A DNA stretch of 64,000 nt from Panacagrimonas perspica. Lineage in GTDB: Bacteria; Pseudomonadota; Gammaproteobacteria; Nevskiales; Nevskiaceae. A program made the position numbers and the translations under genes. The notes beneath the pieces were generated by a model. The model was not told the DNA's origin. It saw only the letters and a program-made list of their open reading frames with translations, and did no database searches. The stretch's first letter is position 1. Each line of letters begins with the position of its first letter. This document shows positions 11,508 through 61,297 of this stretch, in pieces. The stretch is taken from assembly GCF_004364935.1 (NCBI RefSeq), contig NZ_SOBT01000008.1, forward strand, positions 1,367,534 to 1,431,533, read 5' to 3'.

Positions 11508-11885
11508 GTGAAGGAAGCCATCCGGCGCGCGGATACGAACGCCGAGTTCTATACCGATGAGCGCTGCTTCATCACCGAGGTGTCCAATTTCGACGGCGAC
11601 CCCGCCGTCTCCATCGCCCGCGCCCGGGTCGAACCTGGGCAGACGACGCGATGGCATCGGCTGCGTGACACCGTCGAGCGTTACTTCATCCTCTCGGGGC
11701 GTGGCCGCGCGGACGTCGGCGATCTCGGACCGCAGAATGTCGAGCCGGGCGATGTCGTGCTGATCCCTGCCGGGTGCCGGCAGCGCATCACCTGCGTCGG
11801 CGGCCAGACGCTGGTGTTCCTTGCGATCTGTTCGCCGCGCTTCCGGCCCGAGGCTTACGAGGACATCGACGAGACGGGTGGCTGA
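11508..11885 (+). CDS. small cupin-domain protein
   Basis: A 125-aa single-domain cupin. The barrel is visible as RARVEPGQTTRWHRLRDTVE (motif 1, one His and one Glu), RYFILSGRGRADVGD, then VEPGDVVLIPAGCRQRITC (motif 2). Only part of the usual metal-binding set is recognisable, so it may be a sugar- or ligand-binding cupin rather than a dioxygenase. GTG at 11508 is chosen because GAGAGGAC lies ten bases upstream; GTG 11457 would add 17 residues. Function unknown. Confidence 0.65.
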   Translation: MKEAIRRADTNAEFYTDERCFITEVSNFDGDPAVSIARARVEPGQTTRWHRLRDTVERYFILSGRGRADVGDLGPQNVEPGDVVLIPAGCRQRITCVGGQTLVFLAICSPRFRPEAYEDIDETGG

Positions 11886-11974
11886 GGTCTGCGAGCGAGC
11901 GGGGTCGGCACCGGACGTGCGCCGCGGGACAATCGGCGACAAGATCCGCCCTCGTCCTCGCCTCATCATTCCGC

Positions 11975-13159
11975 ATGGATTCCACCGCTGCCCCGTCGAC
12001 CCCGCTCCCGCTCCAGGGCATTCGTGTTCTCGAACTCGGCGCGCTGATCGCCGGCCCCTACGCGAGCTCGCTGTTCGCCCAGTTCGGGGCGGAGGTGATC
12101 AAGATCGAGCCGCCGAAGACCGGCGATCCGTTGCGCAAGTGGCGCAAGCTGCACGAGGGCACGTCGCTGTGGTGGTACGTGCAGAGCCGCAACAAGAAGT
12201 CGGTCGTGCTGGACCTGAAGACGGACCAGGGCCGCGACGTCGTCCGCCAGCTCGTCGCCGAGTGCGACATCGTCATCGAGAACTTCCGGCCCGGAACGCT
12301 CGAGGAATGGGGACTGGGTTGGGAGCCGCTTTCCGCCATCAATCCGAAGCTGATCATGGTGCGCATCTCCGGCTACGGACAGACCGGGCCGCGTCGCGAT
12401 CTTCCCGGCTTCGCCGCCATCGCCGAGGCGATGGGCGGGCTGCGTTACGTGACCGGTTTTCCGGATCGCCCGCCGGTGCGGGCCGGCATCAGCATCGGGG
12501 ACACGCTGTCCGCGCTGTACGGCGCGTTCGGCGCGATGACGGCGCTGCATCACCTGAAGAACAACGGCGGCAAGGGACAGGTCGTCGACGTGGCGCTGTA
12601 CGAGTCGGTGTTCGCCGTCATGGAAAGCCTGATCCCCGAATTCTCCGGACTCGGCTTCACGCGCGAACGGTCCGGCGCGAGCATGCCGGGCATCTCGCCG
12701 TCGAACACCTACGAATGCCGATGCGGGCAGCACGTCGTGATCGCCGGCAACGGCGATGCGCTGTTCAAGCGCCTGATGACGGCGATCGGACGACAGGACC
12801 TTGCGATCGATCCTGCGCTCGCGCAGAACGACGGGCGCGTCCTGCGCAACGACGAGATCGACGCCGCGATCAGCCACTGGACGCTGGCGCGCGACATCGA
12901 CGAGGTCATCACGGCGCTGGAAGCGGCCGAGGTTCCGGTCGGCAAGATCTACACGGCGGGCGACATCTGCGCCGACCCGCACTACGCGGCACGTGGAATG
13001 CTCGAGGAACACCTGACGCCGACCGGCCTGCGCATGCAGATCCCCGGCATCGTTCCCAAGCTCAGCGCGACACCCGGACGCACGCGATGGCTCGGCCCCG
13101 CGCTGGGCGAGCACACGGCCGAAGTGCTGGCGGCGCTGCAGAGCAAATCGCGGACCTGA
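11975..13159 (+). CDS. CaiB/BaiF (class III) CoA-transferase
   Basis: Transfers CoA between carboxylic acids through an aspartyl intermediate. The 394-aa protein shows the family order: IRVLELGALIAGPYASSLFAQFGAEVIKIEPP (N-terminal Rossmann part), SRNKKSVVLDLK, NFRPGTLEEWGLG, ISGYGQTGP, then GDTLSALYGAFGAMTAL. The Asp expected to carry CoA is in this region (ISIGD at about residue 169). A second CoA-transferase of the family is at 20721. The neighbours here do not reveal its acid substrate; a sugar permease and a glycosidase follow. Confidence 0.88.
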   Translation: MDSTAAPSTPLPLQGIRVLELGALIAGPYASSLFAQFGAEVIKIEPPKTGDPLRKWRKLHEGTSLWWYVQSRNKKSVVLDLKTDQGRDVVRQLVAECDIVIENFRPGTLEEWGLGWEPLSAINPKLIMVRISGYGQTGPRRDLPGFAAIAEAMGGLRYVTGFPDRPPVRAGISIGDTLSALYGAFGAMTALHHLKNNGGKGQVVDVALYESVFAVMESLIPEFSGLGFTRERSGASMPGISPSNTYECRCGQHVVIAGNGDALFKRLMTAIGRQDLAIDPALAQNDGRVLRNDEIDAAISHWTLARDIDEVITALEAAEVPVGKIYTAGDICADPHYAARGMLEEHLTPTGLRMQIPGIVPKLSATPGRTRWLGPALGEHTAEVLAALQSKSRT

Positions 13160-18800: not shown

Positions 18801-19694
18801 TCAGAGGTGCTTCACGAAGAAGTCGCGGGCCGCGGCGCTGGTTCCGTCGAAGCCTTCGAGGTACGAGGCGTAGTGATCGGCCTTGATGACGTACAGCTCC
18901 TTGGGCTCGCGCGCACGCTGGAACATCTCCAGCGCCAGATCGGTCGGCGTCGACGTGTCGTTGTTGGACACGATCATCAGCAGCGGCGATGGCGCGATCA
19001 GTTCCATGTAGCCGGTCACGTCGTAGTCGAGCAGGTATTCGAGCGAACGGATCGTGACCTTGTTCTCCCATTTCATGCCGGGAACCGACTTCACGTACTT
19101 GTCGAAATAGTTGTGGGTGCGGCGACCGGGGAACGCGCAGGGCTCGCCGTCCTTGTCGCTGGTCACCGGCACGTACTGCGAGGGCTCGCCCTTCATGCGG
19201 CGTGCGCGATCGTCGTCGATCATCTTCATGAACTCGGGGATTTCCGCGAGCCGCAGGAACTGCTGGATGTTCTTCGGCCCGTGCACGAACGGCACCTGGC
19301 TCACGACCGCCTTCACGCGCTTGTCCAGCGCCGCGACGCCGAGCACGGCGCCACCGGTATAGCTGGTGCCCCAGATGCCGATGCGCTCGGGATCGGCCTC
19401 CGGCTGCTGCTGGGCAAAAGTGATCGCGCAGCGGTAGTCACGGCGCTGCGCCACCGGATCGATATCGTGGCGCGGCGAGCCGTCGCTCTCGCCCAGGCAG
19501 CGGTTGTCGTACACCAGCACCGCCATGCCGCCCTTGCAGAACACTTCGGCATACTGGTCCAGCGTCATCTCCTTGACCGCCGTGAAGCCGTGGGCCATGA
19601 CGATGGTCGGGAACTTTCCGCTCTTGTGATCGGGAACGTAGAACCAACCACGCAGCGTGACGCCATCGGCGTTGAACTCGACATTGCGACGCAT
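18801..19694 (-). CDS. alpha/beta hydrolase
   Basis: A 297-aa serine hydrolase. The oxyanion segment is MAHGFTAVKEMTLDQYAE, the nucleophile Ser111 is in GIWGTSYTGG, the acid is likely Asp in VSNNDTSTP, and His in IKADHYASY completes the triad. The segment VLVYDNRCLGESDG is typical of dienelactone-hydrolase-like or acyl-esterase members. ATG 19694 is used. It is divergent from the GntR regulator at 19969, so the palindrome at 19861 could control both. Substrate unknown. Confidence 0.8.
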   Translation of the reverse strand: MRRNVEFNADGVTLRGWFYVPDHKSGKFPTIVMAHGFTAVKEMTLDQYAEVFCKGGMAVLVYDNRCLGESDGSPRHDIDPVAQRRDYRCAITFAQQQPEADPERIGIWGTSYTGGAVLGVAALDKRVKAVVSQVPFVHGPKNIQQFLRLAEIPEFMKMIDDDRARRMKGEPSQYVPVTSDKDGEPCAFPGRRTHNYFDKYVKSVPGMKWENKVTIRSLEYLLDYDVTGYMELIAPSPLLMIVSNNDTSTPTDLALEMFQRAREPKELYVIKADHYASYLEGFDGTSAAARDFFVKHL

Positions 19695-19860: not shown

Positions 19861-19876
19861 GCTTGTACGTACAAGC
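19861..19876. promoter_or_regulatory. perfect 16-bp palindrome, candidate GntR operator
   Basis: GCTTGTACGTACAAGC is an exact palindrome 93 bases before the gntR start codon, in the gap between divergent genes. Size and symmetry fit the operator of a dimeric GntR/HutC-type repressor; binding is inferred. Confidence 0.55.
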
Positions 19877-19968: not shown

Positions 19969-20724
19969 ATGGAACGCAAAGCGGCCGCTTCCGCATCGAC
20001 GATCAAGCATCGCATGATCTCCGACGTTCTCAGCGGCGAAATCCAGGGCGGCAAGTTCAAGGTTGGCGACCTGCTGCCGTCGGAGCCGGATCTGAGCGAG
20101 CGCTTCGGCGTCAGCCGGCACACCGTGCGCGCCGCGCTGCGATCACTCCATGGCCTGGGACTGGTGACGAGCCGTCGTGGCGTCGGCACCTCGGTGAAGG
20201 GCAATCGCCTTGCGGCGCGCTACAGCCATGAATTCGGATCGGCCGATGATCTGTTCCAGTATGCGACGAGCACGAGGGTGCGCCTGCTCGAGCACGACGA
20301 AGTGGTCGTGACGGCGTCGATGGCGGCGCTGCTCCATTGCAAGGCCGGCGAGCGCTGGTGGCGCATCCGCACGGTGCGACAGGAGCCTTCGAACAACGCG
20401 GTCGTCGCCTACTCTGAGATCCATCTGCCGCTCGCGTACGGCTCGGTCATCCGCCAAGCGAAGAAGAGCCGCCAGCCGTTCTTCTCGCTGATCGAGACGC
20501 TGTTCCACGAGAAGATCACCGACATCCAGCAGGAGATCAGTTGCGTCGCGCGTCTACCCGCGGCCGAAGCAGCCCACCTGCAACTGCCGAAGGCCTCGCC
20601 GGGTCTGCAGATCACGCGCCGCTATGTCGGTAGCGGCGGACACACGCTGGAGTTCGCGCGATCGGTGCACCCTGCGGAACTCTTCAAGTACGCCATGCGC
20701 CTGCAGCTGCGCCACGGAGCATGA
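19969..20724 (+). CDS. GntR-family (HutC-type) transcriptional regulator
   Basis: A 251-aa repressor-type protein. Residues about 10-77 are the winged helix: KVGDLLPSEPDLSERFGVSRHTVRAALRSLHGLGLVTSRRGVGT. Residues about 90-245 form a UTRA-like ligand domain, ending GHTLEFARSVHPAELFKYAMRL, which usually binds a small metabolite of the controlled pathway. Its stop overlaps the next CoA-transferase start (ATGA), tying it to the acyl-CoA operon at 20721-28968. The palindrome at 19861 is a likely binding site and would imply autoregulation. Ligand unknown, perhaps an acyl-CoA or the free acid. Confidence 0.9.
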   Translation: MERKAAASASTIKHRMISDVLSGEIQGGKFKVGDLLPSEPDLSERFGVSRHTVRAALRSLHGLGLVTSRRGVGTSVKGNRLAARYSHEFGSADDLFQYATSTRVRLLEHDEVVVTASMAALLHCKAGERWWRIRTVRQEPSNNAVVAYSEIHLPLAYGSVIRQAKKSRQPFFSLIETLFHEKITDIQQEISCVARLPAAEAAHLQLPKASPGLQITRRYVGSGGHTLEFARSVHPAELFKYAMRLQLRHGA

Positions 20725-21950
20725 ATCGAATGTCGACCGAACCCGCAGCAGGCGTCGCGATGGAGCAGGTCCTCAAAGGCCTGCGCGTCCTCGACCTGAC
20801 CCAGAACGTGGCCGGGCCCTATTGCACGCAGATCCTCGGCGACATGGGCGCCGAGATCATCAAGGTGGAGCGGCCGGGCTCCGGCGACGACACGCGGGCC
20901 TGGATGCCGCCGGCCTGGGGCGAACAATCACCGGTGTACCTCGCCTTCAACCGCAACAAGAAGAGCATCTGCATCGATCTGGATGCGCCGGAAGGCCAAG
21001 AGGCGGTGGCGCGACTCGCGCGCAGCGCCGACATCGTCGTCCACTCGATGAAGCCCGGCAGCGCCGAATCGCGCGGCCTGGGCTTCGAGTCGCTCCGGCA
21101 GGACAACCGCAAGCTCGTCTACTGCGCCATCAGCGCCTTCGGACAATCCGGGCCCATGAGCGGGCTGCCGGGTTACGACCCGCTGATGCAGGCCTTCACC
21201 GGCGTCATGAGCGTCACCGGCAACGACGGCGAGGCGCCCGTGAGGGTCAGCGTCTCGCTGATCGACATGGGCTCCGGCATGTGGGCGGCGATGGGCATCC
21301 TCGCGGCGCTGCGCGAGCTCGAGCGCACCGGCGAAGGAAGCTGCGTCAACACCAGCCTGCTGGAGACCGGCATCGCGTGGATGTCGGTGTTCATCGCCAA
21401 CTTCCGCGCATCCGGCACGTTGCCGCGCAAGCTCGGATCGGCGATGACGATGTTGGCGCCGTACGAACTGTTCGCCGCCGCCGACGGCTGGGTGTTCATC
21501 GCAGCCGGCAACGACCGCCTGTTCACCCAGGTCTGCAAGGCGCTGGGGATCGACCATGCTGCGTCCGACCCCAAATTCGCGAAGAACGCCGACCGCGTGA
21601 AGCACCGCGTCGAGCTGCATCGCATCATCGAGGACGCGATGGTGCAGATGCCGGCCGCCGAAGCCGTGAGGCGCCTGCGCGCTTGCGGCGCTCCGTGCAG
21701 CATTCTCAACGACGTCGGCCAGATGCTGACCGACGAGCAGGTCGTCTCCGCCGGCATCGTGCAGCCGCTACAGGTCAGCGAAGGCGACGATCATCGCGTG
21801 GTCGGCATCCCGTTCACGCTCAACGGTCGGCGCAAGACCGAACACGTGGCGCCGCCGACACTGGGCGCTCACACGCACGCACTCCTGGCGGAGGCCGGCT
21901 ACGACGATGCGGCGATCCGCCGGATGATCGAGCACCGCTTCGTCGGCTGA
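20721..21950 (+). CDS. CaiB/BaiF (class III) CoA-transferase, operon copy
   Basis: A 409-aa acyl-CoA transferase, probably activating the pathway substrate at the expense of another acyl-CoA. Family landmarks: LRVLDLTQNVAGPYCTQILGDMGAEIIKVERP, NRNKKSICIDLDAPEG, MKPGSAESRGLG, ISAFGQSGP, and the region LIDMGSGMWAAMGILAAL, where Asp in LIDMGSG is the expected catalytic residue. Three Met codons lie near the start; ATG 20721 is preferred because it overlaps the gntR stop. It leads a row of genes 13-33 bases apart encoding beta-oxidation-type steps. Confidence 0.9.
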   Translation: MNRMSTEPAAGVAMEQVLKGLRVLDLTQNVAGPYCTQILGDMGAEIIKVERPGSGDDTRAWMPPAWGEQSPVYLAFNRNKKSICIDLDAPEGQEAVARLARSADIVVHSMKPGSAESRGLGFESLRQDNRKLVYCAISAFGQSGPMSGLPGYDPLMQAFTGVMSVTGNDGEAPVRVSVSLIDMGSGMWAAMGILAALRELERTGEGSCVNTSLLETGIAWMSVFIANFRASGTLPRKLGSAMTMLAPYELFAAADGWVFIAAGNDRLFTQVCKALGIDHAASDPKFAKNADRVKHRVELHRIIEDAMVQMPAAEAVRRLRACGAPCSILNDVGQMLTDEQVVSAGIVQPLQVSEGDDHRVVGIPFTLNGRRKTEHVAPPTLGAHTHALLAEAGYDDAAIRRMIEHRFVG

Positions 21951-21982
21951 CGCATTCCATCCGATCCACTTCCCGAGACGTC

Positions 21983-23143
21983 ATGGACTTTTCCTATACC
22001 GACACCCAGCGCGAGATTCGCGACGCGGTCGCCGCGCTCTGCACGCGCTTCGACGACGCCTACTGGCGCGATTGCGAAGTGGAAAAGAACTATCCGCACG
22101 CCTTCGTCGATGCCGTCACCGAGGCCGGCTGGTTGTCGGCGCTGATTCCGGAGGCCTACGGCGGGTCCGGCCTGAGCCTGCTCGATGCCTGTGTGATCCT
22201 GGAGGCGATCAACCACAGCGGCGGCAATGGCGCGGCGTGTCACGCGCAGATGTACACGATGGCCAGCGTGCTCGAGCACGGCAGCGAGGCGCAGAAACGC
22301 GCGATCCTGCCGCGCATCGCATCGGGCGACCTGCGCCTGCAGGCGTTCGGCGTCACCGAGCCCGACGCGGGCTCCAACACGCTGCGCATCAAGACTTTCG
22401 CGCGCAAGGTCAACGGCGGCTACGTCATCGACGGCCAGAAGATCTGGACCTCGCGCTATCGCCAGTCGGACATGTACCTGCTGCTCGCACGCACGACGCC
22501 GTACGAAGAGGTCAAGCGCAAGACCGATGGACTGAGTTTGTTCCTGATCGACATCGCGAAGGCCGGGAAATCGCTGCAGGCGCGCACGATCGACACGATG
22601 CTCAACCACCACACCAACGAGGTCTTCATCGAGAACCTCGAAGTCGGTGACGACGCGCGCATCGGCGAAGAGGGCAAGGGATTCTCGTACCTGCTCAGCT
22701 CGCTCAACGCCGAACGCCTGCTGGTCTCCAGCGAGTGCCTGGGCGATGGCCGCTGGTTCGTCGATCGCGCGCGGCGCTACGCCAGCGAGCGCATCGTGTT
22801 CGACAAACCGATCGGCGCCAACCAGGGTGTGGCCTTCCCCATCGCCAAGTCGCACGCGGCGCTGTGCGCAGCCGAACTGATGCGCAACAAGGCCGCCACC
22901 CTGTTCGACGCCGGCAAGCCCTGCGGCGGCGAAGCCAACATGGCGAAGTACCTGTGCAGCGAAGCCTCGTGGGAAGCCGCCGAGGCGGCGATGACGACCT
23001 TCGGCGGCTACGGGTTCGCCACCGAATACGGAATCGAGCGAAAGTGGAAGGAGACGCGCCTGTTCCGCACCGCGCCGATCTCGAACAACCTGGTGCTCGC
23101 CTTCATCGCGCAGCACTTGTTGGAGATGCCGCGGTCGTACTGA
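21983..23143 (+). CDS. acyl-CoA dehydrogenase
   Basis: A 386-aa FAD enzyme introducing an alpha-beta double bond into an acyl-CoA. Signatures: ALIPEAYGGSGLSLLDACVILE, FGVTEPDAGSNT, and TTFGGYGFATEYGIERKWKETR. The usual catalytic Glu of short/medium-chain enzymes (YEGT) is absent; that position reads TAPISNN. Glu244 in LNAERLLVSSECLG matches the helix-G Glu used by isovaleryl-CoA and long-chain enzymes, an arrangement that admits beta-branched substrates. It lies between the CoA-transferase and enoyl-CoA hydratase and should be their middle step. Confidence 0.92.
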   Translation: MDFSYTDTQREIRDAVAALCTRFDDAYWRDCEVEKNYPHAFVDAVTEAGWLSALIPEAYGGSGLSLLDACVILEAINHSGGNGAACHAQMYTMASVLEHGSEAQKRAILPRIASGDLRLQAFGVTEPDAGSNTLRIKTFARKVNGGYVIDGQKIWTSRYRQSDMYLLLARTTPYEEVKRKTDGLSLFLIDIAKAGKSLQARTIDTMLNHHTNEVFIENLEVGDDARIGEEGKGFSYLLSSLNAERLLVSSECLGDGRWFVDRARRYASERIVFDKPIGANQGVAFPIAKSHAALCAAELMRNKAATLFDAGKPCGGEANMAKYLCSEASWEAAEAAMTTFGGYGFATEYGIERKWKETRLFRTAPISNNLVLAFIAQHLLEMPRSY

Positions 23144-23156
23144 TCCAGGAACGAAC

Positions 23157-23969
23157 ATGAACGAACCCCAACCCACGTACAGCGCCTACGAGACGATCCG
23201 CCTGGATCGGGTGGACGAGCACGTGCTGCACGTGCAACTGAACCGTCCCGCGGTGGGAAACGCCATCGACACGCAGATGGGCCGGGACCTGCTGGATCTG
23301 TGGACGCGGCTCACCGAGGACGCCGATGGCGTGCGTTGCATCGTGCTCTCTGGATCCGGCGACAAGATCTTCTGTGCCGGTGGCGACCTCAAGCAGCGCG
23401 ACGGCATGAGCAAGGCGCAGTGGCAGGCGCAGCACGAGATCTTCGAGCGCATGTTCTGGGCGCTGGCCGACCTGCCGATCCCGGTGATCGCGGCCGTCAA
23501 CGGTCACGCCTACGCCGGCGGCCTCGAACTCGCGCTGCACTGCGACTTCATCTACGCCAGCAGCGCGGCGCGCATGGCGCTCACCGAGGTCAAGCTCGGC
23601 ATCATCCCGGGCGGCGGCGGCACGCAGAACCTGCCCCGCGCCGTCGGCGACCGCCGCGCCAAGGAGATCCTGATGACCGGCTCGCCGTTCACCGCGCAGC
23701 AGGGCGTCGACTGGGGACTCGTCAATCGCATCCTCGAACCGGGCCAGGTCCTCGCCGTCGCATTCGAAACCGCGGCGACGATCGCCGCCAACGCACCGCT
23801 GGCCACCCGCCAGATCAAGAAATCGGTCCGCTACGGCAGCCAGATGGAACTGCGCACCGCATACCGATTCGAGATCGAGGCCTACAACCACCTGATCGAC
23901 ACCGAAGACCGGCTCGAAGGCGTGCGCGCCTTCAACGAGAAGCGCAAGCCGGTCTTCCGCAGCCGTTGA
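23157..23969 (+). CDS. enoyl-CoA hydratase/isomerase (crotonase)
   Basis: A 270-aa crotonase with both hydratase glutamates: Glu124 in AGGLELALHCD and Glu144 in LTEVKLGIIPGGGGTQ, 20 residues apart as in classical enoyl-CoA hydratase. The CoA-binding FCAGGDLKQRDG and the C-terminal AFNEKRKPVF are present. It should hydrate the product of the upstream acyl-CoA dehydrogenase. Given the HMG-CoA-lyase-like gene next to it, a methylglutaconyl-CoA hydratase-like role is plausible but unproven. Confidence 0.92.
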   Translation: MNEPQPTYSAYETIRLDRVDEHVLHVQLNRPAVGNAIDTQMGRDLLDLWTRLTEDADGVRCIVLSGSGDKIFCAGGDLKQRDGMSKAQWQAQHEIFERMFWALADLPIPVIAAVNGHAYAGGLELALHCDFIYASSAARMALTEVKLGIIPGGGGTQNLPRAVGDRRAKEILMTGSPFTAQQGVDWGLVNRILEPGQVLAVAFETAATIAANAPLATRQIKKSVRYGSQMELRTAYRFEIEAYNHLIDTEDRLEGVRAFNEKRKPVFRSR

Positions 23970-23997
23970 TCGACACGCACCACCCGGAGCCCACGCC

Positions 23998-24930
23998 ATG
24001 CCCACCGCCATCATCGTCAGGGAAGTCGGCTTGCGCGACGGTCTGCAGATCCATCCCACGTTCATGCCCACCGCGGACAAGCTGGCGTGGATCAGCGCAG
24101 CTGCCGCGGCCGGCATCCGCGAGATCGAAGTCACGTCCTACGTTCCGCCCAAGCTGATCCCGCAGTTCACGGATGCCGCCGAGGTCACGCGCGGCGCGCT
24201 CGAGATCCCGGGGCTGAAATCGTCGGCGCTGGTGCCCAATCTCAAGGGCGCCGAGCGCGGCCTGGAGCTGGGCGTGCCGATGCTGAACTTCGTCGTGTCG
24301 GTGAGCCGCACGCACAACTTGAAGAACGTGCGACGCGAACCTTCGGAGTCGGTGGCGGACTTCCGCGAGATCGTCCGGCGCGTGCGCACCGAGAGCGCCG
24401 CGCGGCGCACGATCATCAGCGCCGGTCTGTCGACGGCGCTGGGCTGCTCGTACGAAGGACGCATCCCGGTGGACGACGTCGTGCGCCTGGCGGTCGAGCT
24501 GGCCGATGCCGGCGCGGATGAGCTGATGATCGCCGACACCGTCGGCTACGCCGACCCGGCACAGGTTCGCCGCGTGTTCAGGGCCGTGCAGCAGGAAGTG
24601 AAGACGGTGCCGCTGCGCGCCCATTTCCACGACACGCGCGGCACGGGCCTGGCCAACGCGAGCGCGGCGCTGGATTGCGACATCACCCGCTTCGATGCCT
24701 CGCTGGGCGGCCTCGGCGGCTGCCCGTACGCGCCAGGCGCCAGCGGCAACATCGTGCTCGAAGACCTGGTGTTCATGTTCGACTCGATGGGTCTGGATAC
24801 CGGCATCGACATCGGCAAGCTGCTGGCCGTGCGCGAACAAGTGAAGGCCGCCCTGCCCGACATGCCGATGCACGGCGCGCTGTGGCGCGCCGGCTTGCCG
24901 CGCCATTACGTCAGCGCCGCGACGCGCTGA
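23998..24930 (+). CDS. hydroxymethylglutaryl-CoA lyase-like enzyme
   Basis: A 310-aa TIM-barrel lyase of the HMGL-like family. The N-terminal VREVGLRDGLQ carries the metal-binding Arg-Asp, REIEVTSYVPPKLIPQ and DTVGYADPAQV follow, AHFHDTRGTGLANA supplies metal-binding histidines, and Cys242 in GLGGCPYAPGASGN is the active-site loop cysteine. The family cleaves 3-hydroxy-3-methylglutaryl-CoA, or related 3-hydroxyacyl-CoAs, to a keto acid plus acyl-CoA. Leucine or terpene pathways would normally add a biotin carboxylase; none is here, so the acyl-CoA probably arises from the CoA-transferase route. Confidence 0.9.
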   Translation: MPTAIIVREVGLRDGLQIHPTFMPTADKLAWISAAAAAGIREIEVTSYVPPKLIPQFTDAAEVTRGALEIPGLKSSALVPNLKGAERGLELGVPMLNFVVSVSRTHNLKNVRREPSESVADFREIVRRVRTESAARRTIISAGLSTALGCSYEGRIPVDDVVRLAVELADAGADELMIADTVGYADPAQVRRVFRAVQQEVKTVPLRAHFHDTRGTGLANASAALDCDITRFDASLGGLGGCPYAPGASGNIVLEDLVFMFDSMGLDTGIDIGKLLAVREQVKAALPDMPMHGALWRAGLPRHYVSAATR

Positions 24931-24954
24931 GCTGCGTCGATCGCGGACGAGCCG

Positions 24955-26307
24955 ATGCCGACCCCGCTCACGCAGGCGCTCGCCGAGTTCGTCGCGAACC
25001 CACGCATCGAGCGTTCGCTGCCCGCTGCGATGCGGATCGCGAAGATCGGCCTGATCGACACCGTCGCCACTGCGCTGGCGGGCTGTGCCGAGCCTGCCGT
25101 CCGCATCCTCCTCGAACACCTCACCGCGCAGGGCGGCACGCCCGAGGCGCCGTTGCTGTTCACCGGCACGCGGCTGTCCACGGCGCATGCCGCCCTCGTC
25201 AACGCCGTCGCGGGCCACGCGCTGGACTACGACGACGTCTCGCTGTCCGCGCACACCAGCACGGTGCTGATCCCTACCCTGCTCGCCGAAGGCCATCGGC
25301 TCGGCGCCTCGGGATCCGACGTGCTGCGCGCCTACGCCGTCGGCTACGAAGTCTGGGCCGACCTGCACACGCGCGAACCCGACCCGCTCCATCTGAAGGG
25401 CTGGCATCCGACCAGCGTCTTCGGCACCGTCGCCGCTGCGGCAGCCGTGGCGCATCTGGCGAAGCTGCCGGCGCACACGGTGCAGACCGCGCTGGCCCTC
25501 GCCGCGAGCCTGTCGTCGGGACTGGTCGCGAACTTCGGGACGATGACCAAGCCGCTGCACGCGGGCAAGGCGGCCTCGCACGCGATCGAGGCCGTTCGCT
25601 TGGCCGAGCGCGGGCTCACGGCGGCGCCAGATGCGCTCGAACATCGCGCAGGTTTTCTCGCGGCACTGTCACCGGCCTCACGCGTCGACCTCGCGCGGCC
25701 TTTCGAAGTCGATCCCGATCGGCTGCGACTCGAATCGATCGGCCTGTCGGTGAAACGCTACCCCGTCTGCTATTCCTGCCACCGCGTCATCGACGGCGCC
25801 ATCGCGCTGATCGAACAGCACGACTTGGCGCCCGCGGACGTCGCCTCGGTGCAGGTCCGCATCGGCGTCGCCCAAGCCTCGATGCTGCGCAATCCGCGAC
25901 CCGTCACGGGCCTGGAAGCGCGCTTCAGCATCGAATTCGCCGTCGCCGCAGCGCTGGTCGCACGACGCGTCGGCCTGGCAGAGTCAAGCGATGCGTTCGT
26001 CACGCAATCCGCGGTGCAGGCGCAGTTCGCGAAGGTGAAGGTCGACACCTGCGACCGTCCTTCCGAGGATTCCGCGTTCGGCTATGCGGATCGCGTGTCG
26101 ATCACCTGCACCGACGGCCGCGCATTCGACTCGGGCGACATCCGCTTCGCACGCGGCAACGCCCGCAACCCACTCGATCCGGCGGAGCTGCGCCAGAAAT
26201 TCATCGACTGCGTGGCCTACGGCGGGTCGGGTCGCAACGCGGGTGCGCTGTACGAGCGGCTCGCGGCGTTCGAGGACATCGACGATGTGCGCGGGCTGTT
26301 CGGTTGA
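24955..26307 (+). CDS. MmgE/PrpD-family protein
   Basis: A 450-aa member of the family that includes 2-methylcitrate dehydratase and cis-aconitate decarboxylase. Recognisable parts are KIGLIDTVATALAG, the conserved GHALDYDDVSLSAHTSTV, GYEVWADLHTREPDPLHLKGWHPTS, FGTMTKPLHAGKAA and KRYPVCYSCHRVIDGAIAL. The Tyr-Asp-Asp and the Lys/His-rich loops of the active site are kept. It usually acts on polycarboxylates, so its presence suggests a dicarboxylic or tricarboxylic intermediate, but activity in this operon is not predictable. Confidence 0.88.
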   Translation: MPTPLTQALAEFVANPRIERSLPAAMRIAKIGLIDTVATALAGCAEPAVRILLEHLTAQGGTPEAPLLFTGTRLSTAHAALVNAVAGHALDYDDVSLSAHTSTVLIPTLLAEGHRLGASGSDVLRAYAVGYEVWADLHTREPDPLHLKGWHPTSVFGTVAAAAAVAHLAKLPAHTVQTALALAASLSSGLVANFGTMTKPLHAGKAASHAIEAVRLAERGLTAAPDALEHRAGFLAALSPASRVDLARPFEVDPDRLRLESIGLSVKRYPVCYSCHRVIDGAIALIEQHDLAPADVASVQVRIGVAQASMLRNPRPVTGLEARFSIEFAVAAALVARRVGLAESSDAFVTQSAVQAQFAKVKVDTCDRPSEDSAFGYADRVSITCTDGRAFDSGDIRFARGNARNPLDPAELRQKFIDCVAYGGSGRNAGALYERLAAFEDIDDVRGLFG

Positions 26308-26341
26308 AACTCAACAGAAGAATCCGGAAGGAGAAGCAGAC

Positions 26342-27823
26342 GTGAAGACGTACAACCAGTTCATCAACGGCCGTTACGTGGAACCCGCGAGCGGCCGCTG
26401 GCTGGACAGCATCGACCCGTATCGGGGCCAGGCCTGGGCGCGCATTCCCCAGGGCTGCGCCAAGGACGTGGATGCCGCAGCGGCCGCCGCGAACGCCGCG
26501 ATGAAGTCCGGGCCCTGGGCGACGATGACGGCGACGCAGCGCGGCAAGCTGATGTTCAAGCTCGCCGACCTGATCGCGCTGAATTCCGACCGGCTCGCCG
26601 AGATCGAGGTCCGCGACAACGGCAAGCTGCTGGCCGAGATGCGCGGCCAGGTCGCCTATCTGCCCGAGTGGTGGCGCTACTTCGGCGGCCTCGCCGACAA
26701 GATCGAAGGCGCGGTGATGCCGCTCGACAAGCCCGACATGATGGGCTTCACGCGTCACGAGCCGGTCGGCGTCGTCGCGGCGCTCACCGCGTGGAACTCG
26801 CCGCTGCTGTTCGTCGCGTGGAAGTGCGCGGCCGCCATCGCGGCCGGATGCGCGGTGATCGTCAAGCCGTCCGAGTTCGCGTCGGTATCGACGTTGGAGT
26901 TTGCGGCGCTGACCAAGGAAGCCGGCTTTCCCGACGGCGTGTTCAACGTCGTCACCGGGCTGGGCCAGGAAGCGGGCTCGGCGCTGGTCGATCATCCCGG
27001 CGTGGCCAAGGTCACGTTCACGGGTTCCGACGTCACCGGCGCGAAGATCTACGCGCAGGCGGCGCGCAGCATGAAACGCGTGTCGCTGGAGCTGGGCGGA
27101 AAGTCGCCGAACATCGTGTTCGACGATTGTGATCTCGACAAGGCGGCTTCCGGCGTCATCTCCGGCATCTTCGCGGCAACCGGGCAGACCTGCATCGCCG
27201 GTTCGCGTCTGCTGGTGCAGAACTCGATCCGCGAAGCCTTCACGGAGAAAGTGGCGGCGCTCGGACGCTCGGCGCGCAAGGGCAATCCGATGGACGCCGA
27301 CACCAACATCGGGCCCGTGACGACGGCGGCGCAGTACAAGAAGGTGCTCGACTACATCGACATCGCCAAGGCCGAAGGCGCGCGCTGCATTCTCGGCGGC
27401 GGTCCCGCGACCGGCCCCACGCTGACAGGCGGCCAGTTCGTGGAGCCGACGATCTTCGTCGACGTGAAACCGGACATGCGCATCGCGCGCGAGGAAGTGT
27501 TCGGCCCGGTGCTGTCGATCATCGGCTTCGAAGACGAGGCCGACGCCATCCGCATCGGCAACGACACGATCTACGGCCTGGCCGCGGGCGTGTGGACGCG
27601 CGACATGGGCCGGGCGCTGCGCGTCTCCGCCGCCATCAAGGCCGGCACCGTCTGGGTCAATACGTACCGCGCCGTGAGCTACATGATGCCGTTCGGGGGC
27701 ATGAAGCATTCCGGCATCGGCCGCGAGAGCGGTCTCGAATCGATCCGGCAGTTCCTGGAAACCAAGAGCGTGTGGCTGTCGTACGCGGACAACGCGCCGT
27801 TGAATCCCTTCGTGCTGCGCTAA
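26342..27823 (+). CDS. NAD(P)-dependent aldehyde dehydrogenase
   Basis: A 493-aa enzyme oxidising an aldehyde to its acid. Catalytic Cys284 is in ATGQTCIAGSR, the general base Glu250 in SLELGGKSPNIVF, the coenzyme motif FTGSDVTGAKIY, and Asn in TAWNSPLLF. The start is GTG 26342, well placed after GGAAGGAGAAGCAG. It is fifth in the acyl-CoA operon and may produce the acid used by the CoA-transferase. A REP-like palindrome begins three bases after its stop. Confidence 0.92.
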   Translation: MKTYNQFINGRYVEPASGRWLDSIDPYRGQAWARIPQGCAKDVDAAAAAANAAMKSGPWATMTATQRGKLMFKLADLIALNSDRLAEIEVRDNGKLLAEMRGQVAYLPEWWRYFGGLADKIEGAVMPLDKPDMMGFTRHEPVGVVAALTAWNSPLLFVAWKCAAAIAAGCAVIVKPSEFASVSTLEFAALTKEAGFPDGVFNVVTGLGQEAGSALVDHPGVAKVTFTGSDVTGAKIYAQAARSMKRVSLELGGKSPNIVFDDCDLDKAASGVISGIFAATGQTCIAGSRLLVQNSIREAFTEKVAALGRSARKGNPMDADTNIGPVTTAAQYKKVLDYIDIAKAEGARCILGGGPATGPTLTGGQFVEPTIFVDVKPDMRIAREEVFGPVLSIIGFEDEADAIRIGNDTIYGLAAGVWTRDMGRALRVSAAIKAGTVWVNTYRAVSYMMPFGGMKHSGIGRESGLESIRQFLETKSVWLSYADNAPLNPFVLR

Positions 27824-27825
27824 CC

Positions 27826-27893
27826 GTAGCCCGGACGAAGTCCGGGGATATGGTCCGTCGAAGAGGGAAAGCCCCGGACTTCGTCCGGGCTAC
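27826..27893. repeat. REP-like bipartite palindrome, copy 4 (inside operon)
   Basis: Arms GTAGCCCGGACGAAGTCCGG and complement separate two co-directional genes 92 bases apart. In mRNA it could form a stable hairpin that lowers downstream expression or protects the upstream message. Confidence 0.85.
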
Positions 27894-27915
27894 AAAAGAG
27901 AGAAAGGAGATCTCC

Positions 27916-28968
27916 ATGAAAGGCATCGTCTTCGAAGGCGACCGCAAGGTCGCGATCGAATCCTTCGACGACCCTACGCCGGGACCCGGCGAGGTCGTGC
28001 TGGAGATCAGGGCCTCCGGTATGTGCGGCAGCGATCTGAAGTTCTATCGCGCTCCGCCGGGTCAGGCGATGAAGGCGCTCGGCTTCAGCAGCGACAAGAG
28101 GGTCATCGCCGGCCATGAGCCCTGCGGCGTCGTCGTGGCGGTCGGATCGCACGTGAATCCCAAGCAGGCCAGGGTCGGGCAACGCGTCATGGTCCACCAC
28201 TACAAGGGATGCGGCGCCTGCCCGCACTGCTCCACCGGCTGGCAGCAACTCTGCGTCGAAGGCGTCGCCGAGGTCTACGGCGTCACCGGTCACGGCGCCC
28301 ATGCGCGCTACATGAAGTGCCCGGCGAACACCTGCGTGAACCTGCCGGAATCGCTGTCCTTCGAAACCGGCGCGGCGATCTCCTGCGGCACCGGCACCGC
28401 CTGGGGCGCGATCCAGCGTCTCGAACTCAAGGGCGACCAGACGCTGGTGATCTTCGGCCAGGGGCCGGTCGGCCTGTCGACGACGCAGCTTGCCGCCGCG
28501 CTCGGCGCGCGTGTCATCGCACTCGACGTCAGTCCCGCCCGGCTGGCGCGCGCGAAATCCTTCGGCGCACACGAACTCATCGATCCGTCGAAGGTCGACG
28601 CGGTGGCCGCCATCCGCGAACTCACCGGCGGACTGGGCGCGCACGCGTCGCTCGACGCCTCCTCGTCACCCGATGCCCGGCGGCAAGCCGTGCAATGCCT
28701 GCGCACCTGGGGCAAGGCCTGCTTCGTCGGCGAAGGCGGACAGCTCACGCTCGATGTCAGCCCGGATCTGCTCCGCCGCCAGATCACGGTGATCGGTCAC
28801 TGGACGTTCTCGACGGTCGGCCAGGCGGAATGCGCGAAGTTCATCGCCGACCGGAACATCGACGTCGACAGCCTGTTCACCGAACGCTGGACGCTCGATC
28901 AGGCCGACGAGGCGTACAAGCTGTTCGACGGGGCTTCGAGCGGCAAGGGCGTGTTCGTGTTTCATTGA
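27916..28968 (+). CDS. zinc-dependent alcohol dehydrogenase (MDR family)
   Basis: A 350-aa medium-chain dehydrogenase. Catalytic zinc ligands are in ASGMCGSDLKFY and the GHE motif of IAGHEPCGVV; the structural zinc cysteines are in GCGACPHCSTGWQQLC. Rossmann motif GQGPVGLSTTQLAAALGA binds NAD(P). AGAAAGGAGATCTCC precedes ATG 27916. It could supply the aldehyde for the upstream aldehyde dehydrogenase, making an alcohol to acid lead-in for the CoA pathway. Substrate unknown. Confidence 0.9.
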   Translation: MKGIVFEGDRKVAIESFDDPTPGPGEVVLEIRASGMCGSDLKFYRAPPGQAMKALGFSSDKRVIAGHEPCGVVVAVGSHVNPKQARVGQRVMVHHYKGCGACPHCSTGWQQLCVEGVAEVYGVTGHGAHARYMKCPANTCVNLPESLSFETGAAISCGTGTAWGAIQRLELKGDQTLVIFGQGPVGLSTTQLAAALGARVIALDVSPARLARAKSFGAHELIDPSKVDAVAAIRELTGGLGAHASLDASSSPDARRQAVQCLRTWGKACFVGEGGQLTLDVSPDLLRRQITVIGHWTFSTVGQAECAKFIADRNIDVDSLFTERWTLDQADEAYKLFDGASSGKGVFVFH

Positions 28969-29025
28969 GCCGACGCGCCGCCGGGTCGATCGTGTCGGTT
29001 TTGAACTTGGGGAAAAGGCTTTTAG

Positions 29026-29150
29026 CGCAAAGGGCGCAAAGGAAAAGAAAGGACGCAAAGAAAAGAAAGACGAAATGTTGGGAACAGCGCTTCGCCCGCG
29101 CCGTTACTCGCCTTCCTTTGCGTCCTTTCTTTTCCTTTGCGCCCTTTGCG
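29026..29150. repeat. 35-bp perfect inverted repeat rich in AAAG (third repeat family)
   Basis: Arms 29026-29060 and 29116-29150 are exact complements built from CGCAAAGG-like units, separated by 55 bases. The whole gap from 28969 to 29259 contains no gene. Base composition is unlike the surroundings. It could be a dispersed intergenic repeat or a long hairpin terminator. Confidence 0.85.
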
Positions 29151-29259
29151 TTGAACGCTTCTACCGGCCCATCAGAAGCCAACCTTCCGCCCAGTGGCGC
29201 TGAGCGCTTTTCCCACTCCATCAGAACCGGCTCGCGCAACCCTCAGCAGGAGACCCCGC

Positions 29260-29703
29260 ATGAACATCGAAGACCGCCTCGCGATCCTGGAGACGATCGC
29301 CAACTACTCGTACCGCTACGACGCCCAGGATCCGGTCGGCTTCTCGGAGCTCTTCGTCGAGGACGCGCTGTGGGAGGCCTACGCCGCGAATGCGCAGAAG
29401 CCCGAGCTGCAGCTCTCCGGCCGCGCCGGCATCCGCGAATGGGCCGCCGCACGGCTGGCCAGGCGCGCGGGCAAGTTCACGAGCCGGCATCACCAGTCCG
29501 GCACCGTCTTCGAGAGCTGGACCGCGGACGGCGCGAAGACGCGCACGATGGTGTTGGTCACGCACCAGGGCACGGATGAAGCCGCGCCCTCGCCGACCTT
29601 GTCCGGCGTCTACCACGACGTGTGGCGCCGTACGCCGCAGGGGTGGCGGTTCGCGCATCGCGCGTTGCATCACGACCGGCATGGTGTTCACGTGCAGAGC
29701 TGA
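29260..29703 (+). CDS. SnoaL/NTF2-like protein
   Basis: A 147-aa protein with the NTF2-like layout: N-terminal helices (EDRLAILETIANYSYRYDA), VGFSELFVEDALWEAY, then antiparallel strands such as SRHHQSGTVFESW and TPTLSGVYHDVWRRT ending WRFAHRALHHDRHG. The family includes small isomerases, dehydratases and dioxygenase beta subunits. CAGCAGGAGACC precedes ATG 29260. It follows the alcohol dehydrogenase after the 35-bp inverted repeat, so it may be expressed separately. Function is not predictable. Confidence 0.75.
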   Translation: MNIEDRLAILETIANYSYRYDAQDPVGFSELFVEDALWEAYAANAQKPELQLSGRAGIREWAAARLARRAGKFTSRHHQSGTVFESWTADGAKTRTMVLVTHQGTDEAAPSPTLSGVYHDVWRRTPQGWRFAHRALHHDRHGVHVQS

Positions 29704-29712: not shown

Positions 29713-29779
29713 GTAGCCCGGACGAAGTCCGGGGTTCCCCTCGCACACGGAGCGCAACCCCGGACTTCGTCCGGGCTAC
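29713..29779. repeat. REP-like bipartite palindrome, copy 5
   Basis: Arms GTAGCCCGGACGAAGTCCGG and complement; linker TTCCCCTCGCACACGGAGCG closely matches copy 2. It begins nine bases after the preceding stop. Confidence 0.85.
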
Positions 29780-36437: not shown

Positions 36438-36501
36438 GTAGCCCGGACGAAGTCCGGGTCCACTTCATCCGAACAACCGCCCCGGACTTCGTCCGGGCTA
36501 C
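36438..36501. repeat. REP-like bipartite palindrome, copy 7
   Basis: Arms GTAGCCCGGACGAAGTCCGG and complement with a shorter linker; it lies four bases before the GST gene stop codon. Confidence 0.8.
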
Positions 36502-37390: not shown

Positions 37391-37458
37391 AATGTTGCAC
37401 GAGCCCCAGGACACCGCTACGGTTCGGCTCATTCGGAATTCGGATGGGGTCCTGCGGG

Positions 37459-38358
37459 ATGGAAAAAGTTCGCTGCGCACTGATCGGGCCGGGCAACATC
37501 GGCACCGACCTGCTCTACAAGCTCAAGCGCAGCCCGGTGCTGGAGCCGGTCTGGATGGTCGGCATCGATCCGGCGTCCGAGGGTCTGGCCCGTGCCCGCG
37601 AGATGGGCCTGAAGACGACGGACCAGGGCGTGGACGGGCTGCTGCCGCATGTGCACGCGGACGGCATCCAGATCGCCTTCGACTCCACGTCGGCCTACGT
37701 CCACGCCGAGAACGCGCGCAAGCTGGGTGAACTCGGCGTGCTGATGATCGACCTGACGCCTGCGGCCATCGGGCCCTACTGCATCCCGCCGGTGAACCTC
37801 GCCGAGCAGCTCGAACGCGGCGCCACCAACGTCAACATGGTCACCTGCGGTGGCCAGGCCACGATCCCGATGGTGGCCGCGGTCTCGCGCGTGCAGGCCG
37901 TCGAGTACGGCGAGATCATCGCCACCGTCTCGTCGAAGTCGGTGGGACCGGGGACGCGCAAGAACATCGACGAGTTCACGCGGACCACCGCCGGTGCGGT
38001 GCGCGACGTCGGCGGCGCGAAGAAGGGCAAGGCCATCATCATCATCAACCCGGCCGAGCCGCCGCTGATGATGCGCGACACGGTGCATTGCCTCACCGTC
38101 GAGACGCCGGACCAGGCGGCGATCACGGCCTCGGTGCACCGCATGATCGCGGAGGTGCAGAAGTACGTCCCGGGCTACCGCCTGAAGAACGGCCCGGTGT
38201 TCGAGGGTCGTCGCGTGTCGATCTTCCTCGAGGTCGAGGGCCTGGGTGATTACCTGCCGAAGTACGCCGGCAACCTCGACATCATGACCGCCGCCGCGGC
38301 GCGCACCGGCGAGATGTTCGCCCGCCGGCTGCAGTCGCCCGGCGCCGTCGCCGCATGA
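37459..38358 (+). CDS. mhpF: acetaldehyde dehydrogenase (acetylating), MhpF/DmpF type
   Basis: Oxidises the acetaldehyde (or propanal) released by the aldolase to acyl-CoA with NAD+. The 299-aa protein follows MhpF closely: [62 protein letters not shown] (catalytic Cys in TCGGQ), [25 protein letters not shown] and [14 protein letters not shown] 37459 matches the family start; ATG 37444 is alternative. First gene of the operon and usually forms a channelled complex with the next one. Confidence 0.95.
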
Positions 38359-38371
38359 ACCGGAATCCACG

Positions 38372-39415
38372 ATGAGCGCCACCACCCGCCTCAAGGGCCG
38401 CAAGATCGCCGTGCATGACATGTCGCTGCGCGACGGCATGCACCCCAAGCGTCACCAGATCAGCGTCGAGCAGATGAAGACCGTCGCCGTCGGCCTGGAC
38501 CAGGCCGGCGTGCCGCTGATCGAAGTCACGCACGGCGATGGCCTGGGCGGCGCCTCCGTCAACTACGGTTTCGCCGCGGCCTCCGACGAGGACTACCTGC
38601 GCGCCGTCGTGCCGCTGATGAAGCGGGCGAAGATCTCTGCGCTGCTGCTGCCGGGCATCGGTACCGTCGACGAGCTGCGCATGGCAGCCGATTGCGGCAT
38701 CGCCTGCATCCGCGTGGCCACGCACTGCACCGAAGCCGACGTCTCCGAGCAGCACATCGCGCTGGGCCGCAAGCTCGGGCTCGACACCGTCGGCTTCCTG
38801 ATGATGTCGCACATGGCCGACCCGTCGAAGATCCTCGAACAGGCACGGCTGATGGAGAGCTACGGCGCCAATTGCATCTACACCACCGACTCGGCCGGCT
38901 ACATGCTGCCCGAGGATGTCGCCGAGAGAGTCGATGCGCTGCGCCAGGGCCTGAAGCCCGAGACCGAGATCGGATTTCACGGCCACCACAACCTGGCGAT
39001 GGGCGTGGCCAATTCCATCGCCGCCGTCACGGCGGGCGCGTCGCGCATCGACTGCGCCTGCGGCGGCATGGGCGCCGGCGCCGGCAACACGCCGATGGAG
39101 GTCTTCATCGCGGTGGCCGAGCGCATGGGCATCGAGACCGGCGTGGACACGTTCAGGATCATGGACGTGGCCGAAGACCTGGTGACCCCGATGATGGATT
39201 TCCCGGTCCGCATCGATCGCAACTCGCTGACGCTGGGCTACGCCGGAACCTATTCGTCGTTCCTGCTGTTCGCCAAGCGCGCCGAGAAGCAGTACGGCGT
39301 CCCGGCGCGCGACATCCTGGTGGAGATGGGTCGCCGCAAGACGGTCGGCGGTCAGGAAGACATGATCGAGGACGTTGCGCTGGACCTGCTGAAGAATCGG
39401 AGCGTCGCGGTATAA
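38372..39415 (+). CDS. mhpE: 4-hydroxy-2-oxovalerate aldolase
   Basis: Cleaves 4-hydroxy-2-oxovalerate to pyruvate and acetaldehyde. The 347-aa protein has the DmpG/MhpE landmarks: [16 protein letters not shown] (metal and catalytic residues), [52 protein letters not shown] (metal-binding histidines) and [12 protein letters not shown]. Thirteen bases after mhpF; together they form the end of a meta-cleavage pathway. Confidence 0.96.
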
Positions 39416-39463
39416 ACCCTCCGCGTCACTTCGATCCAAAAACATTTAGAGAGGAGAACACCG

Positions 39464-41164: not shown

Positions 41165-41275
41165 AGGAATTCTTGCGCGGGGCTCAGCCCCGACAGGACC
41201 TTCGCAGATCGTCATTGAAGTCAGCACAACGTCTCTCCCTGCTCTTTTGCAAGGAGAGAGAGCCAGAGAACGCAG

Positions 41276-41530
41276 ATGCCCAGCCCCATCGACACCATGA
41301 CAGCAAGGCCGATCGACACCGAAGCATCAGCCGGCAAGGCGATCACGCCGTCCCGCCTCTGCGTCATGCACGTCCGCGTCGAGCCTGCACAGGTCTGGTT
41401 CGACTGCCCGCGCTGCGGCGTGGAGCTCGAGGGCTATTACAGCGACCCCCGTGGCCAGACCGACGTCGCCTGCGAGGACTGCGGCACCGTCTTCGACATT
41501 CCTTCCAGCGCCAGCCTGGTCATCACCTGA
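41276..41530 (+). CDS. small zinc-ribbon protein in dioxygenase operon
   Basis: An 84-aa protein with two CxxC knuckles, FDCPRCGVE and ACEDCGTVF, 23 residues apart, the pattern of a zinc-ribbon or rubredoxin-like fold. The N-terminal 30 residues are low-complexity and a shorter form from ATG 41297 or from Met31 is possible. It lies 21 bases before the dioxygenase alpha gene on the same strand. It could be a metal-binding partner or assembly factor of the dioxygenase, or a regulator. No function is established. Confidence 0.65.
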   Translation: MPSPIDTMTARPIDTEASAGKAITPSRLCVMHVRVEPAQVWFDCPRCGVELEGYYSDPRGQTDVACEDCGTVFDIPSSASLVIT

Positions 41531-41551
41531 CCCATTCTGCGAGCCAACGCC

Positions 41552-43335: not shown

Positions 43336-43348
43336 GGTGAACTCCTCG

Positions 43349-45078: not shown

Positions 45079-45088
45079 GGCCCTAGCC

Positions 45089-46933: not shown

Positions 46934-46952
46934 CGCAAGAAGGAACCGACAC

Positions 46953-61230: not shown

Positions 61231-61297
61231 GTAGCCCGGACGAAGTCCGGGATTGCGTTCCGGATGCGAAGGGAACCCCGGACTTCGTCCGGGCTAC
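61231..61297. repeat. REP-like bipartite palindrome, copy 10
   Basis: Arms GTAGCCCGGACGAAGTCCGG and complement between divergent genes. Immediately after it (61304-61327) TGTAGGAGGGGCGTCAGCCC forms another small dyad, possibly a further repeat type. Confidence 0.8.

Follow-up and report, generated by a model that had tools for sequence, protein, structure and literature searches.

A GntR-linked operon of Panacagrimonas perspica, probably for the catabolism of a 2-substituted succinate

A stretch of 64,000 nucleotides of the Panacagrimonas perspica genome (contig NZ_SOBT01000008.1; the whole stretch is called the window below) carries at 19969–28968 eight tightly packed genes, all on the + strand, for a GntR/UTRA regulator, a CoA-transferase (CaiB), an acyl-CoA dehydrogenase (ACAD), a crotonase, a C–C lyase of the 3-hydroxy-3-methylglutaryl-CoA (HMG-CoA) lyase family (HMGL), an MmgE/PrpD protein, an aldehyde dehydrogenase (ALDH) and a zinc-type alcohol dehydrogenase (ADH). 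We propose that this operon, under the control of GntR, probably serves to break down a 2-substituted succinate, a 1,4-dicarboxylate whose C2 bears a side group R, methyl being the simplest R; methylsuccinate or itaconate itself would make up somewhat under half of that likelihood. Gene content, residues, clades, conservation and an upstream palindrome are shown below; the reactions, substrate and stereochemistry that we infer are as follows. MmgE/PrpD would interconvert the enantiomers of the free 2-R-succinate, CaiB would transfer CoA to the acid from a donor such as succinyl-CoA, with the ester on the far carboxyl, and the dehydrogenase would convert this ester to a beta-carboxy, beta-R enoyl-CoA. 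The crotonase would then add water to give a tertiary R-malyl-CoA, to be cleaved by the HMGL-type lyase; the products would be acetyl-CoA and a 2-oxo acid, which for a methyl R is pyruvate. The alcohol and aldehyde dehydrogenases could make the acid from an alcohol precursor. All genes named in the initial annotation of this DNA were found by Pfam and NCBIfam, and their identities support the CoA-ester route that it suggested (activation, dehydrogenation, hydration and cleavage by a lyase).

The itaconate/methylsuccinate cluster known from Cupriavidus necator and Pseudomonas aeruginosa (genes ict, ich, ccl, mcd and msi), which leads via (S)-citramalyl-CoA to acetyl-CoA and pyruvate (PMC12290011, PMC9875883; the latter paper covers the genetics and transferred PA0878-0886 into Pseudomonas putida KT2440), has the same number of core genes and, like the window, combines a CaiB, a related ACAD, an MmgE/PrpD protein, a hydratase and a C–C lyase yielding acetyl-CoA. 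Our reference locus for it, L126, fits the published cluster in all five genes: a PF03328 lyase (best NCBIfam match RipC_Ccl, below the cut-off), a hot-dog hydratase (PF13452), CaiB, ACAD and an MmgE/PrpD protein with the residues published for methylsuccinate isomerase, Glu91 and Tyr148-x3-His152 (PMC12290011). The hydratase of the itaconate/methylsuccinate cluster is of the hot-dog (Ich) type, whereas the only hydratase in the window set is a crotonase, and its lyase is a CitE-type PF03328 protein, whereas that of the window is an HMGL (PF00682). The CaiB and MmgE/PrpD proteins fall in other clades than those of the window, the latter with a catalytic Tyr in place of the window's His, and only the window set has a GntR/UTRA regulator and linked alcohol and aldehyde dehydrogenases.

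One pointer to succinates is the ACAD. Its nearest relatives of known function, 54–58% identical, are the methylsuccinyl-CoA dehydrogenases (Mcd) of the itaconate/methylsuccinate cluster. In the family of a Ramlibacter that carries the window-type cluster, 40 of 120 genomes contain such ACADs (E<=1e-120, 54–59% identical; best 16 candidates scored per genome), and 17 of the 20 neighbourhoods fetched have itaconate-type partners: 15 with a hot-dog hydratase or CitE-type lyase of the L126 kind, L143 with an Ict-like CaiB and L153 with an Msi-like PrpD, while L148, L157 and L158 have none. All 49 aligned ACAD rows, both Mcd-type and cluster-type (36 distinct genes, all collected by likeness to two ACAD queries), share a NAER motif and a Pro in place of the usual catalytic Glu, and the window ACAD and the Mcd-type rows also have an APIS motif in common. 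The Glu of NAER is a candidate catalytic base; by alignment, Pro365 of the window ACAD stands at the canonical base position of IVD/LCAD. In a tree of 41 rows (second copies of one locus under other ids left out, four outgroup rows poor) the window ACAD stands beside the cluster ACADs (support 94), across the branch from the Mcd rows.

The MmgE/PrpD step, left unexplained in the initial annotation, can now be given a proposed role, that of an isomerase of the 2-substituted succinate. The best sequence match is iminodisuccinate (IDS) epimerase (218 bits; Bacillus IRG1 scores 162 and cis-aconitate decarboxylase 126 at most), and the AlphaFold2 model (pLDDT 89.3) is closest in fold to the same enzyme (2hp0/2hp3; for 2hp0 Z 47.8, rmsd 2.4 over 439 residues, 30% identity; Z 45.8 for mouse cis-aconitate decarboxylase). 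Six of the seven catalytic or binding residues are kept: H88, D91, H100, H151, K199 and K267 correspond to H85, D88, H99, H150, K198 and K266 of the epimerase and are invariant in all 12 aligned cluster proteins. The seventh, the second-base Tyr145, is replaced by His146, and His is found here in all 12, window included. Itaconate-type (Msi) proteins form a separate clade in a tree of 54 rows (starred support 100; second copies of one locus under other ids left out), with Glu91, Tyr148 and His152 as published in 12 of 12 rows. With this separation and the replacement of Tyr by His, the MmgE/PrpD of the cluster is a type apart, perhaps suited to another side chain. Homologues of this family are mostly uncharacterised, and a 1,4-dicarboxylate backbone is common to all known substrates (PMC12290011). 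Two of the genomes with the cluster, those of loci L009 and L012, have 31 and 30 MmgE/PrpD paralogues respectively at E<=1e-30, a third (G361) has 12 and the other 11 genomes searched have 0–4.

The crotonase and the lyase set the operon apart from the itaconate/methylsuccinate cluster. The pathways for leucine (Liu) and acyclic terpenes (Atu) likewise use a crotonase-type hydratase with an HMGL on beta-branched acyl-CoA, but the operon differs from them in having no biotin carboxylase, a CoA-transferase entry, an ACAD and MmgE/PrpD of another kind and a lyase outside the LiuE-like clade. The best solved relatives of the crotonase are 3kqf and then 5jbw, presumably LiuC, with methylglutaconyl-CoA hydratase 1hzd in fifth place; we take E124 and E144 to be the catalytic Glu pair of crotonases. 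The lyase scores 281.1 bits against NF004283 (HMG-CoA lyase, cut-off 246), and R13, D14, E44, H209, H211, C242 and N251 are invariant in all 16 aligned cluster lyases. R13 aligns opposite the Met of the human R41M HMG-CoA lyase structure, and the other residues presumably have the same catalytic roles as in the human enzyme. The tree separates the cluster lyases from the LiuE-like clade (starred 100) and places them in a larger clade (starred 99) whose other loci mostly have a CaiB. In a lyase alignment of 67 rows (matches with stops, X or fewer than 250 residues left out) the position of human Ser201 is mostly hydrophobic in the cluster lyases and Ser in LiuE-like rows, which we do not use as evidence.

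What could explain the exchange of both enzymes? Crotonases and hot-dog (MaoC) hydratases make opposite facial choices. Since (S)-citramalyl-CoA and (R)-HMG-CoA share one configuration and the TIM-barrel HMG-CoA lyases are (S)-lyases (PMC6689899), the HMGL should take (R)-citramalyl-type esters. In this reading hydratase and lyase have been swapped as a pair for unrelated enzymes, which probably work in the opposite hydroxy stereo-series, and their joint exchange would fit such a change of hand. More tentatively, and with less confidence than in a 2-substituted succinate as such, we suggest that this is a third convergently assembled 2-R-succinate pathway with a mirror-image hydroxyacyl series, in which crotonase and HMGL form a stereo-matched pair acting via (R)-citramalyl-CoA-type intermediates, the MmgE/PrpD proteins are a new His/His racemase clade and the substrate is a succinate other than methylsuccinate.

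A scan for the lyase over 84,980 species genomes gave at least 15 further loci; all locus counts here are among the matches listed, and in parts of the fetched stretches open reading frame calls are crude and labels given without a family search were assigned by eye. The lyases of these 15 are 62–72% identical to that of the window. Next to the lyase stand the crotonase in all 15, CaiB in 14 (L013 begins inside the crotonase), ACAD in 12 (absent in L009, L011 and L018) and MmgE/PrpD in 12 (lacking from L012 and L018, and with the L014 contig stopping behind its ACAD), an adjacency beyond chance. The initial annotation had read the genes as adjacent in reaction order; this holds in the window, while the relatives have the order CaiB-crotonase-HMGL-ACAD-PrpD. 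The cluster ACAD gene of L023 (3665–4950) is in two pieces, owing to a frameshift or an assembly error. Thirteen of the 15 loci are labelled Betaproteobacteria or groups within, the exceptions being L009 (a metagenome-assembled genome (MAG) titled Chitinophaga) and L020 (a gammaproteobacterial MAG). The records of L009 and L011 bear the names Chitinophaga pinensis and Bordetella parapertussis, but in the tree their lyases fall among those from uncultured Betaproteobacteria, and the MAG labels may be wrong.

Closer to home, no lyase more than 50% identical was found among 99 relatives of the window genome (matches at E<=1e-40). Of 274 genomes from its class, its own included, five pass E<=1e-90 (best 8 candidates scored per genome), the best foreign lyase being 54% identical, and in the family of a Ramlibacter carrier 3 of 399 genomes, carrier included, have the lyase at E<=1e-105 (best 5 scored). 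Because of this rarity and the lack of a lyase above 50% in the 99 relatives, the cluster is a rare accessory trait, which the lineage of the window probably acquired. CaiB, HMGL and PrpD of the window all group with cluster proteins (starred supports 98, 99 and 98), so these genes were inherited as a set. Two-gene CaiB-HMGL modules resemble the window in having a CaiB near an HMGL, mostly of the same larger clade, but their lyases are 45–57% identical, their CaiBs belong to other clades except in L054, and two annotated stretches with such pairs contain no ACAD or MmgE/PrpD. Relatives of the lyase were found in 98 plasmid records (E<=1e-60), with a CaiB in all five plasmid stretches viewed. 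In L054, on a plasmid of Variovorax sp. RA8, an unbroken series of genes starts with hydantoinase/oxoprolinase A and B and continues with CaiB, enoyl-CoA hydratase and HMGL.

Neighbouring genes of 16 loci, that of the window among them, were compared all against all (L013 and L015, whose contigs are short, were left out). Beyond the core this linked a Bug-receptor group in 11 loci, a GntR group in 6, ALDH in 3, a short-chain dehydrogenase/reductase (SDR) in 3 and two small groups in 3 each. An ALDH of the window's kind is found in 3 of the 16, window included, and the alcohol and aldehyde dehydrogenases, although present in the operon and probable feeders as the initial annotation had it, are not part of the conserved core. 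As a clue to the R group the neighbours are too scattered to name a substrate: near L010 there are a tartrate dehydrogenase that passes its cut-off and a lactonase-like protein that reaches none, near L012 a metallo-hydrolase, near L019 a GMC oxidoreductase, near L011 a CMD-family protein and near L009 a PcaC-like protein (below cut-off). LeuD/LeuB-like genes near L020, noted by eye, may be mere leucine synthesis.

One alternative is that the operon provides another path for methylsuccinate, itaconate or citramalate as such and duplicates the function of the known cluster. This is a special case of the 2-substituted succinate and overlaps with it in likelihood; taken by itself it is rather unlikely. 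The five functions are those of the known cluster, two convergent forms of the itaconate pathway are already known (PMC12290011), and the window genome lacks the known cluster type. No second cluster of either kind was found there (no second PrpD at E<=1e-30, no second such ACAD at E<=1e-100), and its single PF03328 match (C3:436005) is on another contig. However, of the other 13 genomes with the cluster, 9 also contain an Mcd at least 71% identical to that of L126 (one partial at a contig edge), and in six of those nine (G362, G356, G695, G357, G363 and G361) it adjoins an itaconate-type partner. No such partner stands beside Mcd in the fetched stretches of G366, G360 and G359, that of G366 ending with the contig; G360 has only CaiB, crotonase and lyase of the window-type cluster. 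To have two routes for one acid would be redundant; this suggests, though not strongly, a different R group, as do the separate MmgE/PrpD clade and its His for Tyr.

The initial annotation had favoured 3-methylglutarate, activated to its CoA ester and converted via 3-methylglutaconyl-CoA and HMG-CoA to acetoacetate and acetyl-CoA. This route, or one for another 3-alkylglutarate, we now consider unlikely, although several of its enzymes would suit it: the lyase is over the HMG-CoA lyase cut-off with its catalytic residues in place, 1hzd and 5jbw are among the solved relatives of the crotonase, and no further HMG-CoA lyase was found in the genome at E<=1e-40. The best solved relative of CaiB is also succinate--hydroxymethylglutarate CoA-transferase (SUGCT; 9br7). 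We rejected this likeness as a pointer to glutarate-type acids, since the itaconate-type CaiB of L126 has the same top NCBIfam family (249 bits, 320 for the window CaiB, both under the cut-off of 750). By Pfam the window CaiB is a family III protein, but it is not in the Ict clade: it groups with 16 cluster CaiBs and that of L054 (starred 98), apart from the Ict-type rows (starred 100). Against 3-methylglutarate, the ACAD is nearest to that of methylsuccinyl-CoA dehydrogenase-type loci, the lyase is outside the LiuE-like clade, and MmgE/PrpD, present in most of the listed loci, has no clear role, because a racemase is useful only for a chiral acid and 3-methylglutarate is achiral.

Tricarballylate (3-carboxyglutarate, or 2-carboxymethylsuccinate, hence formally a 2-substituted succinate), degraded via citryl-CoA to acetyl-CoA and oxaloacetate, is a simple acid that would meet both the glutarate-like lyase and the succinate-backbone rule of MmgE/PrpD. 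The Bug-receptor group, whose member near L010 is a PF03401 TctC protein, also points that way, but Bug receptors take many acids, which weakens the pointer, and the window operon has none. As tricarballylate is achiral, with a racemase needless, and the citric acid cycle reaches the same products more simply, we regard it as very improbable. Least probable of all is that the lyase serves mainly leucine or acyclic-terpene breakdown as the genome's only HMGL (at E<=1e-40): elsewhere in the genome (C1:324000-339000) genes for a biotin carboxylase, a carboxyltransferase, an ACAD and an SDR, Liu/Atu-like by eye, lie in a 15-kb stretch that has no HMGL, but the window lyase shares its inheritance with CaiB and PrpD and its clade is not that of the LiuE-like lyases, and each of 11 cluster-bearing genomes searched has at least one further HMGL (35–43% identity).

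A 2-substituted succinate remains our preferred substrate, with a number of observations weighing against it. By family the crotonase stands nearest to enzymes like methylglutaconyl-CoA hydratase and the lyase to HMG-CoA lyases, a likeness that fits six-carbon glutaconyl substrates no less than succinates. The MmgE/PrpD protein may not be a racemase, since both characterised racemases have the Tyr that is His here. Support in the ACAD tree is moderate (92 and 94, not starred); the window ACAD sits on a long branch (0.9), not within the starred group that unites the other cluster ACADs, with Mcd-type rows nearest by path, and the root is unsure because the outgroup rows have extreme branch lengths. 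The modules also combine freely, since variants exist without ACAD, without HMGL or with HMGL and PrpD alone. Thus ACAD and crotonase occur without HMGL in L130, L131 and L158 (crotonase-ACAD-MmgE/PrpD, with neither HMGL nor CitE-type lyase adjoining; L130 and L131 are inside the cluster's PrpD group, L158 outside), and in L129 (6265–8607) an HMGL of 37% identity that passes the NF004283 cut-off is directly followed by a 43% identical MmgE/PrpD. In L009, L011 and L018 the entry acid may be unsaturated, because ACAD is absent there. Finally, the window operon contains no transporter.

Control by GntR, as the initial annotation had it, is supported by the position of the GntR gene, first in the operon, and by a palindrome upstream, putatively the regulator's own site (Table 1). 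CTTGTACGTACAAG has one match in the window at up to 2 mismatches and none in 100 shuffles; genome-wide, one place is found at up to 1 mismatch, and likewise one for a reversed control pattern. In our view it resembles HutC-type operators, and both HutC-like hallmarks, the GntR helix-turn-helix and the UTRA domain, were detected in the regulator by Pfam. No TTGTANNTACAA-type site was found in 15 related stretches searched. The linked GntR genes, in 6 of the 15 other loci, encode proteins 31–36% identical over their full length to the window's regulator, which did not join that group at 38% identity in the neighbour comparison. Within the operon the CaiB ATG overlaps the GntR stop, intergenic gaps are at most 34 bases through ALDH and about 93 bases ahead of ADH, and scans of the operon for terminators and promoters found nothing. 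As initially noted, there is no biotin-dependent carboxylase among the operon genes, and none of the genome's five PF01039 matches is inside the window.

Table 1. Operon genes and nearby features, in window coordinates.
Feature	Position	Strand	Remarks
Divergent alpha/beta hydrolase (AXE1/S15-like)	18801..19694	-	Same intergenic region as the palindrome; co-regulation possible
Perfect 14-base palindrome CTTGTACGTACAAG, probable GntR/UTRA operator	19862..19875		93 bases upstream of the GntR gene
GntR-family regulator with UTRA ligand domain	19969..20724	+	PF00392 1.8e-16, PF07702 2e-18
Family III (CaiB/BaiF) CoA-transferase, probable acid activation	20721..21950	+	PF02515 1.4e-118
ACAD, relative of methylsuccinyl-C4-CoA dehydrogenase (Mcd)	21983..23143	+	Glu244 present; Pro365 at canonical base position
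Crotonase-fold enoyl-CoA hydratase	23157..23969	+	PF00378; E124, E144 present
HMG-CoA-lyase-family (TIM barrel) C–C lyase	23998..24930	+	PF00682; R13, D14, E44, H209, H211, C242, N251 present
MmgE/PrpD protein, probable racemase/isomerase of 2-substituted succinate	24955..26307	+	H88, D91, H100, H151, K199, K267 present; His146 in catalytic-Tyr place
ALDH, probable feeder	26342..27823	+	GTG start; PF00171 1.5e-172
Palindromic repeat element between ALDH and ADH	27826..27893		22-base arms, 100% complementary
Zinc-type ADH, probable feeder	about 27917..28968	+	PF00107 4.3e-28, PF08240 2.1e-22
Large imperfect hairpin 3' of ADH (last gene), possible operon end	29011..29165		53-base arms, 87% complementary
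SnoaL_4-like protein, probably not part of operon	29260..29703	+	PF13577 1.8e-22
TAGCCCGGACGAAGTCCGGG element places	1040-1104, 10157, 11423, 27826-27893, 29714-29778, 36439-36500, 61232-61296		

Elsewhere in the window, the 20-base element TAGCCCGGACGAAGTCCGGG has 12 matches at up to 3 mismatches (none in 100 shuffles), ten of them as five facing pairs 22–26 bases apart, and looks like a dispersed palindrome of the repetitive extragenic palindromic (REP) type. A second family III CoA-transferase gene (11774–13159, PF02515 1.2e-122) lies about 7 kb upstream of the operon. At 37444–47771 there is an aromatic meta-cleavage-like set: acetaldehyde dehydrogenase, 4-hydroxy-2-oxovalerate aldolase, an AMP-binding enzyme, Rieske dioxygenase alpha and beta, a glyoxalase/extradiol-type protein, an alpha/beta hydrolase and an FAA-type hydratase. 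A Rieske alpha 52–56% identical to that of the window is found near the cluster in L022/L081, which may be coincidence.

The literature searched contained no description of this gene set, none joining HMG-CoA lyase, CaiB and MmgE, and none joining citramalyl-CoA lyase with HMG-CoA lyase; PMC12290011 does not mention HMG-CoA, MaoC or crotonase. If the proposed pathway is correct, the HMG-CoA lyase family would have a role beyond leucine and ketone-body metabolism, and the MmgE/PrpD family would gain a new activity clade. A branched-dicarboxylate pathway would have been assembled a further time, from unrelated parts and in the opposite hand, and the leucine-type annotation of CaiB-HMGL clusters would be corrected.

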